A stretch of DNA of 31,913 nt from a virus. Each line of letters starts with the position of its first letter. The stretch's first letter is position 1. The translations under genes and the position numbers were made by a program. The notes beneath the pieces were generated by a model. That model was given only the letters and a program-made list of their open reading frames with translations, had not been told where the DNA came from and did no database searches. Of the stretch, positions 1,286 to 13,544 are shown piece by piece. The stretch covers positions 1 to 31,913 of IMG/VR virus record IMGVR_UViG_3300021964_000290; one strand, given 5' to 3'.

Positions 1286-1462
1286 CTAATCCTCCTCTGT
1301 GATTAATCTTGATTGCAGGGATGCTGCCTCATAAAACCAGAAAAAGTCGTCCTGCTCATCTGGGTCAATATCTTCTCGCAAATTGTCTAAAAGCTCAATG
1401 ATATCTGGCGGCATGGGGTTTTCCTGCACCAACCGCTCTGCCTCATTAAATGCTGCGCTCAT
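1286..1462 (-). CDS. Small acidic hypothetical protein (58 aa)
   Basis: This ORF starts at an ATG that overlaps the stop of the MuF gene as TAATG, indicating coupled translation. The product (MSAAFNEAERLVQENPMPPD at the N-terminus, ending RLITEED) is strongly acidic and has no membrane segment or cysteine. It sits in the packaging/head operon between the MuF protein and the micropeptide, so a role in head assembly is possible. I do not recognise a family. Confidence 0.8.
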   Translation of the reverse strand: MSAAFNEAERLVQENPMPPDIIELLDNLREDIDPDEQDDFFWFYEAASLQSRLITEED

Positions 1463-3489
1463 TATACTGGCCTCCCCTTATCAAAGTCCCAACCATCAAA
1501 CACCCGCAGCCTGCCATTGCTCGCTGCGATTGCATCTAAAAGCTCTACCAGCTTCTCATCAACCAGGTCTTTTCTGCCCATGTTGTACAGGCTAAAGCTC
1601 TCTGCAAACCATTCCTCTGGGTTTGTTTCTGAGTATTTGGTAGGGAAAAATCTATCTTTATTTCTTCGCCCTCCTGGCCCATAGAATAGACTTGCCAGGT
1701 ATCGCTCAAATGATGTGCTGTCCTTGTCAGTAAATTGACGCCAGGACTCCTGGTGCACTAGGTGGCCATATTCGTGATAAACGACGCTCCGCAGCTCATC
1801 TGCAGGATTCTCAAAGTATGAGCCAGCCAATCGTGGGCGCTCGGCCAAATCATCGCCTCTGGCAAAGGTGCTAATCTGCCGTTCTCTATTTTGGTCATTA
1901 AGCGCGTTGACTATATCAGCCTGCTTGTTGACCGCCTTGCGCTTTTTCTCTGCTGCATCTCGTAACGCAATATAATCAGCCCACTCATCACTCCTACTTG
2001 CTGCGCCAAGCCCCCCGTATTTTTCGCTTAGAGCGCTTCTGAGCGCCAAGGACTCTGAATAAGCCTGCTGAAAATCCTGTTTTAGCTCATCATATTTAGC
2101 GTTAGCTGCAGCCAGGCTGACCTGTCGCTTTTCACGACTCGTGTAGGCTTGGCCTGCGTATCTGTTGAAATACGCCGCCTTAATGCCCATAACGCCGTCG
2201 CCCATGTTAGCAGCTGCACTGTCACCTCTCAGCGCATTAATCCCTCTGATTGGTGGGGTTTTAAAGCGCTTCCCGAGGTCTGCAGTTTCTTTCAGCAGCT
2301 GATTAAGGATTGCGGCACCTTCTGGCCCCAGGCTGCCAATCGACACCTTGCCGTAGGAAGCCAGGGCTGCGTCCCTATTGAGCTGGCCACGCTTACGGGT
2401 ATTAGCCTTGAACCTAACCGGCAATTCGCCGTCACGGTCTAAATAGGCGGCATCAGAGCGATCTGGCGAGGTGGCCTTGCTGGCTGCCTCTGCTTGGGCG
2501 GTCATTGCTTTAGTGCTTTTGCTCTTAGCCTCTACAGGTGGCAGATCAGGGCTTACCTCTTCCTCTTCTGGCTCTGGCTCTACGACTGGCTGCGTAAACT
2601 GGTCTACATCATCCTCATCTATGATAGGACGCCAATGGTGGCGGCAGTTATAGCCTCCCCTGGCGGTAAAGGCATCGCTAGAGCTTTTGCCAGACCAAGA
2701 GCCTTGCCAGATTTCCTCTATTTCTTCTGTGGTGTAGGTATTACCAACGTGATCTCTGCAGAATTGCCTAGAATCCCTAATGATATCGCCGTAATACTTC
2801 CATTTCGTAGCGCCTGCCTCAATGCCTGCGTTGACGTTGATAGCAGCGTCAAACTGCATCAAGCTGTCCTGGGCTATCTGTGTCGCGTAACGCCGCATAT
2901 TGTTGCCTGCCCTATCCGCAGCGTAGACAGTGTGCAGCTTGTCTATCGCGGCCTTTGACTGCGCTGGGGTGCCATTCTTGGCAATATCGACCAATCGGTT
3001 AATTTCGGCCTGGTCGCTCTGCATATAGACGCCATTGATGGTCTGCCTAATGCTCTTAATCATCTGCTCTTTAGATCGCCCCGTTAGGGCATTCTGATAG
3101 ATTTCGTTGGCTATGGTGTCGAGATATGTAGCCGATATATCCTCAAAGCCCTGGAACGTCAGACGCTGAAGCTGCCTAATGACATCAGGGCTTGTTTGTG
3201 TGAAATCCCCATAAGTATTGAGCATATCCAGGGCGCGGATAGCGGTACTAGGATAATCGTCCAGGATAGATTGAACAGCAGCGCCGTATTCCTCTTCCAG
3301 AATGCGCTGTATTTCTCGCCTGCTTGATATAGCCCACTCAAGATCAAACAGGCTGCCGTCTGTAACCGGCGCACCATTGAGGTAGGCTGCAATCCTTTCC
3401 TCTGCTCGCTGCAGCGCATCAAGTAGCCTGCCCTCATGGGCATCTGCCAGGGCGTCCAGGTACTCATCATGCTCCTGCTCTGTAGGCAT
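1462..3489 (-). CDS. MuF (SPP1 gp7-like) minor head protein fused to a C-terminal zinc-metallopeptidase-like domain
   Basis: A 675-aa protein following the portal gene (TAATG overlap). Residues about 80-295 match the phage Mu F / SPP1 gp7 head-morphogenesis domain: a helical region, then FCRDHVGNTYT near 243 and the hallmark GGYNCRHHWRP near 278-288. After a Pro/Glu-rich linker (about 300-325) comes about 350 extra residues. These carry a zincin signature HEYGH (H572, E573, H576) and, about 50 residues on, EEWFAESF (625-632), which resembles the third-ligand motif of anthrax-lethal-factor-like peptidases. MuF proteins sit inside the head with a few copies and may enter the host with DNA. Known MuF proteins often carry toxin or enzyme tails. 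A head-maturation protease role is an alternative. The domain match is by motif only. Confidence 0.88.
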   Translation of the reverse strand: MPTEQEHDEYLDALADAHEGRLLDALQRAEERIAAYLNGAPVTDGSLFDLEWAISSRREIQRILEEEYGAAVQSILDDYPSTAIRALDMLNTYGDFTQTSPDVIRQLQRLTFQGFEDISATYLDTIANEIYQNALTGRSKEQMIKSIRQTINGVYMQSDQAEINRLVDIAKNGTPAQSKAAIDKLHTVYAADRAGNNMRRYATQIAQDSLMQFDAAINVNAGIEAGATKWKYYGDIIRDSRQFCRDHVGNTYTTEEIEEIWQGSWSGKSSSDAFTARGGYNCRHHWRPIIDEDDVDQFTQPVVEPEPEEEEVSPDLPPVEAKSKSTKAMTAQAEAASKATSPDRSDAAYLDRDGELPVRFKANTRKRGQLNRDAALASYGKVSIGSLGPEGAAILNQLLKETADLGKRFKTPPIRGINALRGDSAAANMGDGVMGIKAAYFNRYAGQAYTSREKRQVSLAAANAKYDELKQDFQQAYSESLALRSALSEKYGGLGAASRSDEWADYIALRDAAEKKRKAVNKQADIVNALNDQNRERQISTFARGDDLAERPRLAGSYFENPADELRSVVYHEYGHLVHQESWRQFTDKDSTSFERYLASLFYGPGGRRNKDRFFPTKYSETNPEEWFAESFSLYNMGRKDLVDEKLVELLDAIAASNGRLRVFDGWDFDKGRPV

Positions 3490-9919: not shown

Positions 9920-10190
9920 GGATGGCTCGCAATCTAGCCGCTACCTCTTCGATTGTTTCATCTGGCCCCAGGTCAGCCTCTGCTTCCAGCTCGCGCTCTA
10001 TCATTATGTCCAAGTAATGCCTGGCTTTACGCAGATCGTCCACGCCTCCCTTAAAATTCCACCTGGAAACGTATTTAATAACTGCGTGCTCGCATACGCC
10101 CAGGTCATTCTCTAGCGCATACTCTAGCGGCTGTATTCTTAGACGGCTGTAATGATCGCCTGCAATTTGCGTTTCTAATGACTTCATCAT
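9912..10190 (-). CDS. DUF3310 protein
   Basis: A 92-aa protein with the DUF3310 pattern: AGDHYSRLRIQPLEYALEN, then AVIKYVSRWNFKGGVDDLRK and ARHYLDIMIERELE. The family is widespread in phages, usually near replication or nucleotide genes; its activity is not established despite occasional 'nucleotide kinase' labels. I chose ATG 10190, which overlaps the helicase stop as ATGA and has GGAG 5 nt upstream. ATG 10187 and GTG 10196 are alternatives. The C-terminal part is acidic. Confidence 0.88.
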   Translation of the reverse strand: MMKSLETQIAGDHYSRLRIQPLEYALENDLGVCEHAVIKYVSRWNFKGGVDDLRKARHYLDIMIERELEAEADLGPDETIEEVAARLRAIHE

Positions 10191-11134
10191 ATCCACTCCA
10201 TAGTTGGCGGTTTTCCGGTTTTGCGAAACTTAAAAGCCTGCCCAGGTGCCAGGTATAGCGGGATGGTTCCCTCAAATGGTGCCTTTCGCTGCTTAGCTAC
10301 TATTAACTTGAAATCACACTCAGTGGTTAAAATCTCTGTTTCCCGAGCGTCTAATGGCTGCCCGTAGTCTTGTTTTTGCAGGATTCGGCTCCTGCGCTTG
10401 TTGTGCCAGGCAATCATTAGCAAATGCACCTGGTCAACCAGGGAGCTGCTGCCCCTAACATCAAACCTGGTGGGGACATATTCATCACCACCGTGCTGCG
10501 GCTTTCTGACATGGTGCAAAATGCAGATATGTATTTTCATGGCGCTGGCCAGACCAATGATCTGGTTGAACCATAGGCGCTCGCGCTCGTTATCCTCAGT
10601 TACGCCAGTAAACTGCAGGTTATCTATAGCAATCACTTTAGCCCCGCGCCTAGCCATCGCCACAATAGCGCCAAGGCATTGTATTGGACTCACGCCACCC
10701 AAGACTCTGTACCAATAAAAACGACCAGATAACCAAGCAGCAAATTTTTTGCCGTACTCAGGTGCTACGTTATCGACGGCTGCGCTCTGTTTGCACATGA
10801 GCTTTGCGGTATCCTCTATATCCATCTCAAAGCTGGCCAGCCCTACGGGATGCTCTCTGGCAGCCCATAACAATATCTGGCTTAAAACCGTGCTTTTCAT
10901 GTGGCCATTGATCCCAGCTATTAGCGAAACCTCGCCCATTCTTAGCCGCACTTTGTCCTCGGTTTCAAACCACGGCAGAGCTATGCCGCTGGTCACTGGG
11001 TTTTCGGACAAGCGCTCTATAAAACTGTCCGAAAATTCCTCAATGCCAATAACGTCGATATCCTCAACCTTGGCGTAAATCTCGCGCAAATCGGCATCAG
11101 TAAAGTCCTCTACCTCTTTCTTTGGTAAATTCAT
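10187..11134 (-). CDS. DnaB/T7-gp4-type replicative helicase (RecA-fold domain only)
   Basis: A 315-aa ATPase that probably unwinds the phage replication fork as a ring. Walker A is AGINGHMKST (73-82), Walker B is VIAIDN with D171, and HH at 207-208 followed by VRGSSSLVDQ near 226-235 match DnaB/gp4 motifs. It lacks the N-terminal collar of bacterial DnaB and has no primase domain, so it is shorter than DnaB (about 450 aa). The primase-type zinc domain is encoded two genes upstream. Being next to an O-like initiator, it takes the place of lambda P plus host DnaB, bringing its own helicase. Confidence 0.88.
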   Translation of the reverse strand: MNLPKKEVEDFTDADLREIYAKVEDIDVIGIEEFSDSFIERLSENPVTSGIALPWFETEDKVRLRMGEVSLIAGINGHMKSTVLSQILLWAAREHPVGLASFEMDIEDTAKLMCKQSAAVDNVAPEYGKKFAAWLSGRFYWYRVLGGVSPIQCLGAIVAMARRGAKVIAIDNLQFTGVTEDNERERLWFNQIIGLASAMKIHICILHHVRKPQHGGDEYVPTRFDVRGSSSLVDQVHLLMIAWHNKRRSRILQKQDYGQPLDARETEILTTECDFKLIVAKQRKAPFEGTIPLYLAPGQAFKFRKTGKPPTMEWI

Positions 11135-11727
11135 AAGCTAAATTCTCCCACTTGATTAACACTCCCCTTTCTTGGAAATACGGATTTCCACCCGCACTCT
11201 ATCGCCATATCGACAGCTGTTCGCTGCTCTTCTGGCGTCAAATCTTTGAGTTTGTTAGCCACTAGGACTAGCGACCTCTCAGTAGTTGGCCCCTTAAACT
11301 TGCGACGATACGCTACCCAATCGCGCCAGGCATCTTTGTCTATTGTATCGGGTGGTTTGTAGCTGCCGCGCCTTGGTGGTTCCTTTGATGGTTCATTGGT
11401 GGTTAGAGTGTTGGTTTCGACACTACTAGCAGTGTTGATTTCCGCACTAGCAGTAGTGCTGATTTCGACACTACTAACAATTAGCTGATAAACCGTAGAC
11501 TTGTTAAATCGCTTTTGCCGTTTCAATATCCCCAGCTGCTCAAATTTCCGCAGCGCATTAGCTACTGCGTGACGGGTAGCGCAGCTGCGCTTGCAGATAT
11601 CATCATAGCCAGGATAACAGTAACCATCGACATCAGCGCGATCTGCTAGGGTCAGCAGAATAGCTTTCTGCGTACTTGTTATGTTGGTGACGGTGTTAAG
11701 CGCCCAGTTGATTGCTTCAATGCTCAT
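11131..11727 (-). CDS. Replication initiator with N-terminal winged helix (lambda O-like)
   Basis: A 198-aa protein. Residues about 1-80 form a winged-helix domain of the HTH_36 / phage O N-terminal type (STQKAILLTLADRADVDGYC, then AVANALRKFEQLGILKRQKR). A Ser/Thr/Asn-rich linker follows (about 85-120), encoded by three 18-bp iterons. The C-terminal part (DKDAWRDWVAYRRKFKGPTT through WKSVFPRKGSVNQVGEF) resembles helicase-loader regions of phage initiators. In lambda O, the origin iterons also lie in the linker between the DNA-binding and helicase-contact domains. It overlaps the zinc-domain gene and the helicase gene at its two ends. Confidence 0.83.
   Translation of the reverse strand: MSIEAINWALNTVTNITSTQKAILLTLADRADVDGYCYPGYDDICKRSCATRHAVANALRKFEQLGILKRQKRFNKSTVYQLIVSSVEISTTASAEINTASSVETNTLTTNEPSKEPPRRGSYKPPDTIDKDAWRDWVAYRRKFKGPTTERSLVLVANKLKDLTPEEQRTAVDMAIECGWKSVFPRKGSVNQVGEFSL
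11407..11472. repeat. Three 18-bp iterons inside the initiator gene (putative replication origin)
   Basis: Units at 11407-11424 (AGTGTTGGTTTCGACACT), 11431-11448 (AGTGTTGATTTCCGCACT) and 11455-11472 (AGTGCTGATTTCGACACT) start exactly 24 bp apart. Each is an imperfect palindrome, AGTG(T/C)TG..CGACACT around a TTT core. They encode the initiator's linker, so the protein shows an 8-residue echo (SVEISTTA, SAEINTAS, SVETNTLT). Lambda ori has four 18-bp dyad iterons in the same place within gene O. Flanking sequence around 11473-11530 is moderately AT-rich. Function is inferred. Confidence 0.72.
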
Positions 11728-12167
11728 CAGTGAGCACCAGATAACGGCTTATTCGCCTCGCGCCTCACTTTGTCTGCAAATCCGTTGCGCCTGCCTCCGC
11801 GCTTTAGTGCCAGTTTATAGCGCTCTTTATCCGTTGCGGTCAGCTTTCTACCATGCTCCTTCGCATCCTCTGCCAACTCCACTACGAAATCGTCGAGACT
11901 GCTTTGATAACGCCTATCTATAGATTTGTAATGCGGCTGCGGGTGTTTTGGTGGCGGCATTACTGCGTCCCAGGATAGCCCTATAGCTGTCAAAACATCT
12001 AAAGTCCCGCAACCTGCATGGCAGCGCAGTAGCACCCTAGTATCTTCCAGCTCTGTTATTGATAAAGATGGCGAGCGATCATTGTGCGCTGGGCACACTG
12101 CCATCCACTTGCCCTGGCCTGTCGCTCTATATTTGCTGATGCGGTTTAAGATGTCCGTTGCAGACAT
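11727..12167 (-). CDS. Primase-type zinc-binding domain protein (no catalytic domain)
   Basis: A 146-aa protein whose first 70 residues match the zinc-binding domain of phage and plasmid primases: CPAHNDRSPSLSI (C25, H28) and VLLRCHAGCGTLDVLTAIGL (C49, C53). The rest (about 75-146) is basic, with no TOPRIM or catalytic primase motif. It probably reads priming sites or helps host DnaG and the phage helicase. The start at 12167 has AGGGGG 6 nt upstream; the stop overlaps the initiator start. It is the first gene after the putative small-RNA locus. Confidence 0.82.
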   Translation of the reverse strand: MSATDILNRISKYRATGQGKWMAVCPAHNDRSPSLSITELEDTRVLLRCHAGCGTLDVLTAIGLSWDAVMPPPKHPQPHYKSIDRRYQSSLDDFVVELAEDAKEHGRKLTATDKERYKLALKRGGRRNGFADKVRREANKPLSGAH

Positions 12168-12189
12168 GGATTGCCCCCTGCGATATAAT
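12161..12189 (+). promoter_or_regulatory. Candidate plus-strand promoter for small antisense RNA
   Basis: A perfect -10 box TATAAT (12184-12189) stands 17 bp from CAGACA (12161-12166), which shares GACA with the -35 consensus. It points rightward, against all protein genes, and its -35 overlaps the first codons of the zinc-domain gene. A start near 12196 would give an RNA of about 50 nt ending at the terminator at 12225-12246. Weak -35 keeps confidence modest. Confidence 0.42.
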
Positions 12190-12195
12190 TACCTG

Positions 12196-12246
12196 GCAAC
12201 CATTTGGCTGCACTCCCCTTGATAGCCCCCTAACGGGGGCTTTTTT
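12196..12246 (+). ncRNA. Putative OOP-like antisense small RNA (about 50 nt)
   Basis: The span between the candidate promoter and the intrinsic terminator could be transcribed rightward. It begins with an imperfect stem (GCAACC at 12196-12201 with GGCTGC at 12206-12211) and ends in the terminator hairpin and T-run. It is antisense to the leader of the zinc-domain gene and to the last codons of the HTH gene. Lambda OOP RNA has the same placement between cII and O, overlapping the 3' end of cII. No open reading frame is apparent. Existence is inferred from signals only. Confidence 0.42.
12225..12246 (+). terminator. Intrinsic terminator, plus-strand orientation
   Basis: GCCCCC-TAAC-GGGGGC gives a perfect 6-bp GC stem followed by TTTTTT. 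The T-run is on the plus strand only; reading leftward the hairpin is followed by TATCAAGG, so it should not stop the leftward mRNA. The hairpin overlaps the stop codon of the HTH gene. A rightward terminator in a genome with no rightward protein genes is unexpected. Confidence 0.75.
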
Positions 12247-12427
12247 CTTGCAAAAACTCAGCCACGCTAACCTCTAGCGCCTGGCATAAGTTAATCACTG
12301 TGCTGGCAAGCATATCAGGCTGCCTTCGCCACCGGCTAATTTGCTGGGGTGAAGTCTGCAGCCGCCTCGCCAGGGCTGCATTGGTCATGCCACGCAGCTT
12401 CTGTGCTTCAATGAGGTTTTTGCCCAT
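12230..12427 (-). CDS. Small Cro/CI-type HTH DNA-binding protein
   Basis: A 65-aa protein, almost entirely one XRE-family helix-turn-helix: MTNAALARRLQTSPQQISRW (about 14-33), followed by LASTVINLCQALEVSVAEFL. Such proteins are usually dimeric repressors. There is no repressor partner, integrase or divergent promoter pair, so it is likely a Cro-like regulator of early or late transcription. I start it at ATG 12427 rather than the TTG at 12436. It follows the SSB stop by 5 nt, and its 3' end is overlapped by the putative antisense RNA. Confidence 0.85.
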   Translation of the reverse strand: MGKNLIEAQKLRGMTNAALARRLQTSPQQISRWRRQPDMLASTVINLCQALEVSVAEFLQEKSPR

Positions 12428-12432
12428 GTGTT

Positions 12433-12789
12433 TCAAAACGGCAAATCATCCTCTGCCTTGGCTTTGCTGTCTAGCAGCTGCAGCTGGTTAGCTATCACCT
12501 CAGTGGTATAGCGATCCTGGCCATTTTGGTCTTGCCATTTGCGCGTCTGCAGCTTGCCCTCAACGTATGCCTTAGAGCCTTTTTTTAAATACTCCGCAGC
12601 GATCTCTGCAACCTTGCCGTAGAAAGTGACCTTATGCCACTCAGTGCGCTCCTGCTTGCTGCCCTGCTTGTCCGTCCAGGACTCGCTGGTAGCCAGGCTG
12701 ATATTTGTAACCATCCCGTTTTGCAGCTGCTTGCTTTCTGGGTCAGCGCCCAGGTTCCCAATCAAAATCACTTTGTTGATTCCAGCCAT
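12433..12789 (-). CDS. ssb: Single-stranded DNA-binding protein
   Basis: A 118-aa OB-fold SSB. Residues 1-105 carry the family pattern [60 protein letters not shown] and the C-terminal tip DDLPF, the acidic-hydrophobic tail that recruits partner proteins. It protects ssDNA and organises replication and recombination. The ATG at 12789 overlaps the Erf stop as TAATG; an upstream start is unlikely. The linker before the tip is short, as in many phage SSBs. Confidence 0.95.
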
Positions 12790-13544
12790 TATGCTTGCTC
12801 CCACATGTTTTCAATAAATGTCTTGCAAATATCGTCGATCATTACCAGCAGCCGCTCATGCTCTAACGCTGATAAATCCTCGACCAGCTCCCTTACCCCA
12901 AGATCGTCCTGCTTTTTCACTAGATCAGGAAGCTGCTTTTTGATTTCCTTCAAAGGCCACCAAAACTCGTTGACGCGATCATTCCAGGCTTTTTTAAACG
13001 CGCTAATCTTGCCTTTCGGCGCTTTGTTAAATACAAGATCACGCATAGCCTCATCAAGCCCCTCAGAAAAAAGTACAAAGTCACCTGGCGTGCCTGTGCT
13101 TAATAAATTGCAAGCCTTGTTGTACTGCTCAGTTACGTCTTTTTCGTTAATCTGAGGATGACTAGCGGCATTGCCGTCATCGTCGGCAGCAGGGATGCCA
13201 GCAATAGCCTGCAAAGCATACCTCCTTGCATAAGTTAGGCAGCTCCCAACTCCCTGGCTATCAAACTTGCCTACCGGCAGCGTAAACTGATCCTCCAGCC
13301 ATTGACCAGAGCTGTGCATAAGCCTGGTAGTAACTCCCGCAGTGTTCTCTTCCCGCAAAGGAAACTGTACGAATGAAAGGCCGTTGTTGGCAAACGGCTC
13401 TTTGACTGCCTTGATAACAGACCCGACATCAGCGTATTTGGCACTAAAAAACGGGTTCTCTGCTCCCTTTAGTGCAGCACCCATTTCGCCCTGCGCCTTT
13501 GCTAGAGCTGATGCCAGCTCGTTAATTTCTGCGCTACTCTTCAT
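12789..13544 (-). CDS. erf: Erf-family single-strand annealing protein
   Basis: A 251-aa recombinase of the ERF superfamily. The signature region is [20 protein letters not shown] then [20 protein letters not shown] and [20 protein letters not shown] near residues 115-135. P22 Erf and relatives anneal complementary ssDNA, helping circularisation and repair of phage DNA. ATG 13544 is chosen because GGGAG lies 8 nt upstream; an in-frame start at 13565 lies within the previous gene. The C-terminal third is charged and helical, with an SSB gene directly downstream. No partner 5'-3' exonuclease is visible in the window. Confidence 0.88.

Follow-up and report, generated by a model that had tools for sequence, protein, structure and literature searches.

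The OOP RNA of phage λ is a 77-nt transcript (pO-oop-tO, NC_001416 38675-38599) that overlaps the cII gene by 52 bases (PMC5869508). It forms a duplex with the cII mRNA, leading to an RNase III-dependent cut just outside cII and to suppression of CII activity (PMC5869508). In λ pO mutants, pR-initiated transcription past pO goes up and replication efficiency goes down; pO activity holds back transcription from pR and has an effect on replication, and the RNA itself appears not to be the means (PMC3985674). OOP is mostly treated as a detail of the lysis-lysogeny decision of λ. Other small cis-antisense RNAs include CopA of plasmid R1, RNA I of ColE1 and Sar of P22.

Here, a locus in OOP's place is described from an uncultivated phage. 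The gap between the gene for a small helix-turn-helix (HTH) regulator and the gene for a primase-type zinc domain is bracketed by an antisense promoter of the sigma-70 type on one side and an intrinsic terminator on the other, and comparison of relatives shows that the two signals are kept together across a broad group of phages.

The replication module and its predicted antisense unit

The window, meaning the whole stretch of DNA that was analysed, comprises 31,913 bases and is catalogued as a virus record in IMG/VR. Its predicted genes are encoded on the minus strand (Table 1). In order of transcription, the module encodes Erf, SSB and a 68-aa HTH protein, then, after a 62-bp gap, the zinc-domain protein, an O-like initiator and a DnaB-like helicase, with NinB and NinG further on. 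The HTH protein matches HTH_26/HTH_3, as do its relatives, and no match to the CII family was found for the window protein or for theirs. A Shine-Dalgarno sequence, AGGGGG, lies immediately 5' of the ATG of the zinc-domain gene (12165-12167). The iteron-like repeats in the O-like gene are 0.7 kb from the antisense promoter. Elsewhere in the window, a 675-aa protein (1462-3489) adjoins the portal gene; its C-terminal matches to zinc metallopeptidase families are weak and below the cut-off, and it is possibly a virion or head-associated protein.

Table 1. Coordinates of the replication module and of the antisense unit in the window
Feature	Position	Strand	Remarks
DnaB-like helicase gene	10187-11134	-	Query for gathering relatives
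O-like replication initiation gene	11131-11727	-	
Three 24-nt direct repeats, iteron-like	11407-11479	+	Within the O-like gene, cf. λ ori
Primase zinc-ribbon-domain gene (DnaG-like zinc domain)	11727-12167	-	146 aa; first gene past the gap
-35-like hexamer CAGACA	12161-12166	+	4/6 of TTGACA; overlaps the start of the zinc-domain gene
-10 element TATAAT	12184-12189	+	6/6; 17-bp spacer from CAGACA; inside the non-coding gap
Predicted antisense small RNA	12196-12247	+	∼52 nt
5' hairpin GCAACC-ATTT-GGCTGC	12196-12211	+	Fully paired in L002/L003; the window has one A.C mismatch
Single-stranded linker with conserved CUCC motif, ACUCCCCUUGAU	12212-12223	+	
Intrinsic terminator AGCCCCC-TAAC-GGGGGCT plus T run	12224-12247	+	Stem-loop 12224-12241; 7-bp stem, 6 G-C
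Small Cro/CI-type HTH gene	12230-12436	-	68 aa from TTG; occupies the λ cII position
Single-strand DNA-binding protein (SSB) gene	12433-12804	-	Overlaps the start of the HTH gene

A sequence-only reading of this DNA had proposed a TATAAT with a 17-bp spacer, about 50 transcribed bases and an intrinsic terminator on the plus strand, all opposing every gene. Both parts held, with every gene predicted nearby on the minus strand; the terminator stem, put at 6 bp of GC, needed correction to the seven pairs of Table 1. The proposed overlap of the RNA with the 3' end of the HTH gene also held, but it amounts to the last 18 nt only. The ends of the RNA are inferred, the start (near G12196) from a distance of 7 nt past the -10 element, and the end (∼12247) from the T run. 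The predicted RNA folds with a minimum free energy of -19.7 kcal/mol (z -3.1), and no convincing open reading frame was found within its ∼52 nt. The mismatch in its 5' hairpin is A.C in the antisense RNA and reads as G.U on the sense strand (mRNA).

The terminator is the sole strict terminator on either strand of the whole window; applied to λ 37900-39700, the terminator detector finds tO alone, inside the end of cII. The promoter is a weaker signal when taken by itself. CAGACA-17-TATAAT is the best of six sigma-70-like matches in 8-16.5 kb, and shuffled sequences give 9.9, so the window promoter alone is no better than chance; because the -35 hexamer overlaps the start of the zinc-domain gene, its conservation provides no independent evidence. 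An Rfam search of the window returned no relevant match, and an exact-sequence search with TATAATTACCTGGCAACC found no match among viral contigs. The inverted repeat GCAACC-N4-GGTTGC was considered as a repeated operator and rejected, 20 matches (up to 3 mismatches) against 16.3 expected giving no sign of extra copies.

Recurrence of the unit among relatives

With a single genome the promoter could not be told from a chance match, and the case that the antisense unit is more than chance therefore comes from relatives. Searches with the DnaB-like and HTH families gathered well over 100 loci, and profiles of the HTH and zinc genes yielded 64 distinct junctions from viral contigs, grouped in 37 clusters at 90% identity. 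Among isolate phages, the phage collection offered remote relatives only, with DnaB-like proteins at or below about 29% identity.

Two contigs with 89% nucleotide identity to the window (L002 and L003) keep both promoter and terminator. The region 12210-12500, over the HTH gene, hardly differs between the window and these contigs, whereas across much of its surroundings they diverge by 10-30% (identity per 100 nt ranges from 67 to 98% outside it), and it represents a recent mosaic exchange between them. As this is a mosaic patch, conservation in these two contigs alone proves nothing and was set aside.

Absence of the promoter and terminator from close relatives would have refuted the sequence-only reading. 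Instead, the unit recurs at the junction: 31 of the 37 clusters have a strict antisense terminator in the interval from -20 to +30 nt around the HTH stop codon, and none (0/37) has a sense-oriented one. Elsewhere in these loci, over ∼300 kb, each orientation is represented by a single strict terminator. The stem-loops occur in 29 distinct versions. Every one is fully paired, and in the antisense RNA the pairs include G.U while A.C is absent. The zinc-domain proteins of the carriers range from 34% to 93% identity. As a separate observation, hardly any strict intrinsic terminator other than the antisense one occurs in the module around it, whichever relative is taken.

The unit is missing from five clusters that together make up a single supported clade (100/98); their HTH and zinc genes are only 8-9 nt apart. 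The gap thus seems to exist for the antisense unit, being this short in the sole clade that lacks it. The one other cluster without the unit (L105) is probably a mis-paired open reading frame. No unit was found at the corresponding place in zinc-domain relatives with other neighbourhoods (L005-L014), nor in more remote HTH relatives that lack the zinc gene (L016, L106 and L111-L137), so that the unit belongs to the HTH-zinc pair.

Conservation of the promoter and the predicted RNA body

A strong -10 element, defined as TATAAT, TATACT, TAAAAT or TATATT on the antisense strand within 100 nt 5' of the stem, is present in 28 of the 31 terminator-bearing clusters. The sense strand has one in 3 of 31, and random windows drawn 1000 times gave 1.8 on average and never more than 6. 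The hexamer varies at positions 3 and 5 only, which are the weak positions of the sigma-70 consensus, with the caveat that the hexamers were chosen by score. Several clades without a good -35 have a TG one base 5' of the -10 (extended -10), and one clade (L071/L078/L087) has the terminator without a strong -10. In the antisense promoters of L019, L150 and L171, the -10 is set within a perfect palindrome, CTGTATAATTACAG, which resembles a LexA box and is two bases shorter.

Where the -10 places the start, the predicted RNAs of relatives are 41-64 nt long. Their bodies usually have a small hairpin, and the body without the terminator has a mean z of -3.2. The stem pairs of the hairpin differ between relatives. 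At pair 5, C-G in the window and L002 is replaced by U.G in L019, L150, L171 and L022 and by U-A in L023, a change that goes via a wobble pair in the antisense RNA only; one window pair, the A.C already mentioned, shows the opposite. These pairs were taken from the folds, since a MAFFT alignment of the 5' hairpins placed the covarying pair wrongly. The motif CUCC appears in the loop or linker of 30 of the 31 RNA bodies, and in all 18 clade representatives (18/18), compared with a mean of 6.1 and a maximum of 11 in shuffled sequences.

A proposed role at the regulator-replication boundary

It is very likely that the unit in the HTH-zinc gap is a real antisense transcription unit, a conclusion reached without transcript data. 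The preferred reading goes further and takes the locus for a conserved antisense small-RNA gene in the place of OOP. Host RNA polymerase would make an RNA of ∼40-65 nt whose sequence complements the early polycistronic mRNA across the HTH-zinc junction, and the loop or linker bearing CUCC would begin pairing with its G-rich complement. The duplex would be cut in an RNase III-like manner, or use of the junction would be blocked, and the mRNA of the HTH gene (with SSB and Erf upstream) would be separated from, and tuned against, the replication mRNA of the zinc, O and DnaB genes. More templates would give more antisense RNA, and hence negative feedback on the regulator and on the early transcript. 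Such action would resemble that of OOP on cII mRNA by analogy, and the RNase III step in particular is borrowed from λ. Taken whole, with this inferred function included, the balance of evidence tips modestly in favour of the preferred reading. The points against it are the A.C mismatch in the window hairpin, the L071/L078/L087 clade without a strong -10 and the one clade that lives without the unit. The earlier suggestion was that the RNA could tune the regulator or the primase-domain gene; as few or no coding bases of the HTH gene are overlapped, it may act on the gene downstream instead, or have no mRNA target.

The strongest rival, which remains possible, is that the act of antisense transcription matters and not the RNA. 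A pO-like promoter would limit read-through into the replication genes or set the topology for origin firing, and the terminator would end antisense transcription at the end of the HTH gene. The effects of λ pO mutants described above (PMC3985674) are consistent with this, as are the nearby iteron-like repeats and the retention of the promoter in 28 of 31 clusters, but it leaves the conserved CUCC (30/31) and the paired 5' hairpins unexplained. Also live, and unlikely, is a trans-acting small RNA that would use its C-rich loop or linker (CUCC or CCUCC) to bind Shine-Dalgarno regions in other phage transcripts or in those of the host, the DnaB-like helicase mRNA being one candidate. In its favour, CUCC is found in every clade representative, above anything reached by shuffling, and the window linker CUCCCCUUGAU (12212-12223) matches AUCAAGUGGGAG before the start of the DnaB-like gene (∼11140-11160, upstream of 11134), the duplex scoring -21.3 in the window against -10.6 in shuffles. 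Across relatives, however, the DnaB target score is barely better than in shuffled sequences (z averages -1.15 and falls below -2 in 7 of 28), and the clades are not independent; any CUCC will pair with any Shine-Dalgarno sequence, and the sense strand carries the same conserved GGAG. The family-wide signal is weak, and the DnaB-like mRNA was rejected as a general trans target.

Other explanations fare worse. It is very unlikely that the element works on the mRNA strand, as leader structure, as a standby ribosome site (GGAG) or through a tiny leader peptide of the zinc gene. GGAG is indeed conserved, short leader frames follow it in some cases (MVAR* in the window; L022, L097) and the window hairpin pairs better as sense RNA, but the frames are missing in most clades, the A tract of the mRNA 5' of the stem makes no sense terminator and a good antisense one, sense terminators are absent from all 37 clusters and the -10 pattern is strand-specific (28 against 3). 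The leader peptide was accordingly rejected as not common to most clades. An insulating terminator that merely stops stray antisense transcripts before the SSB and HTH genes, with no dedicated small RNA, is supported by the L071/L078/L087 clade; this too is very improbable, given the strong -10 close upstream in 28 of 31 clusters, the conservation of the body motif and hairpins, and the fact that no gene that might require a terminator is transcribed in that orientation. Chance resemblance in one genome, which the promoter-like matches of the window would allow, being no commoner than in shuffles, is all but excluded by recurrence at the same junction in 31 clusters.

Read more boldly, these RNAs would make up a phage small-RNA family that so far has no name and is marked by a conserved CUCC in its loop or linker. 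In uncultivated phages that appear to be lytic, it would bring the action of a non-CII regulator into step with DNA replication, in part by pairing with Shine-Dalgarno sequences, that of the DnaB-like gene among them. As a whole, this joint claim is less likely than not. If it were true, an OOP-like device would serve the timing of replication and not lysogeny. An OOP-like layout beside a different regulator, with zinc proteins down to 34% identity and no lysogeny genes detected, suggests a more general job for an antisense RNA at the boundary between regulator and replication genes. The fixed layout and its many sequence versions make the group suited to separating the roles of the RNA, the promoter and CUCC.

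Comparison with known antisense systems

The claim of an OOP-like locus between regulator and replication genes is supported on place and layout, and failed on the CII partner. As in λ, the unit is on the opposite strand between an HTH regulator in the cII position and O-type replication genes, and, judged by sequence and conservation only, it has a promoter of its own and stops at an intrinsic terminator where the regulator gene ends. Both RNAs have a 5' hairpin, and λ has CUCC in the loop region, although a single CUCC in 77 nt is weak evidence alone. The iterons of λ ori lie within O, as the iteron-like repeats of the window lie within its O-like gene.

The differences are equally clear. 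The partner in the window is of Cro/CI type (HTH_26/HTH_3) and not CII; the overlap with the regulator, ∼52 bases in λ, comes to only 18 nt in the window, and in many relatives no coding base is covered; the RNAs are shorter (41-64 nt against 77 nt); and the zinc-domain gene intervenes before the O-like gene. A LexA-type box, CTG-N10-CAG, is present at λ pO and absent near the window promoter. Neither an integrase (PF00589) nor an S24 repressor (PF00717) was found in 18 records, several of them of 32-39 kb, and lysogeny control is therefore not indicated, with the reservation that these records may be incomplete.

The nearest lead to a cultured host is a Haliea salexigens prophage (L142, 4326-5324), which has a P22-type Cro, a CII/CP76-like gene and the same zinc-domain and DnaB-like genes. 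Its replication module resembles that of the window, with the CII/CP76-like gene at the place of the HTH gene; unlike in the window, this gene overlaps the zinc gene by 4 nt, leaving no gap and no antisense unit.

What is common to the window and OOP is thus layout, with neither descent, sequence kinship nor function proven. CopA, RNA I and Sar differ from the window RNA in location, targets and sequences, but they are likewise small and structured, lie opposite the mRNA of a replication or regulator leader or junction, and pair loop first, as the window RNA is proposed to do.
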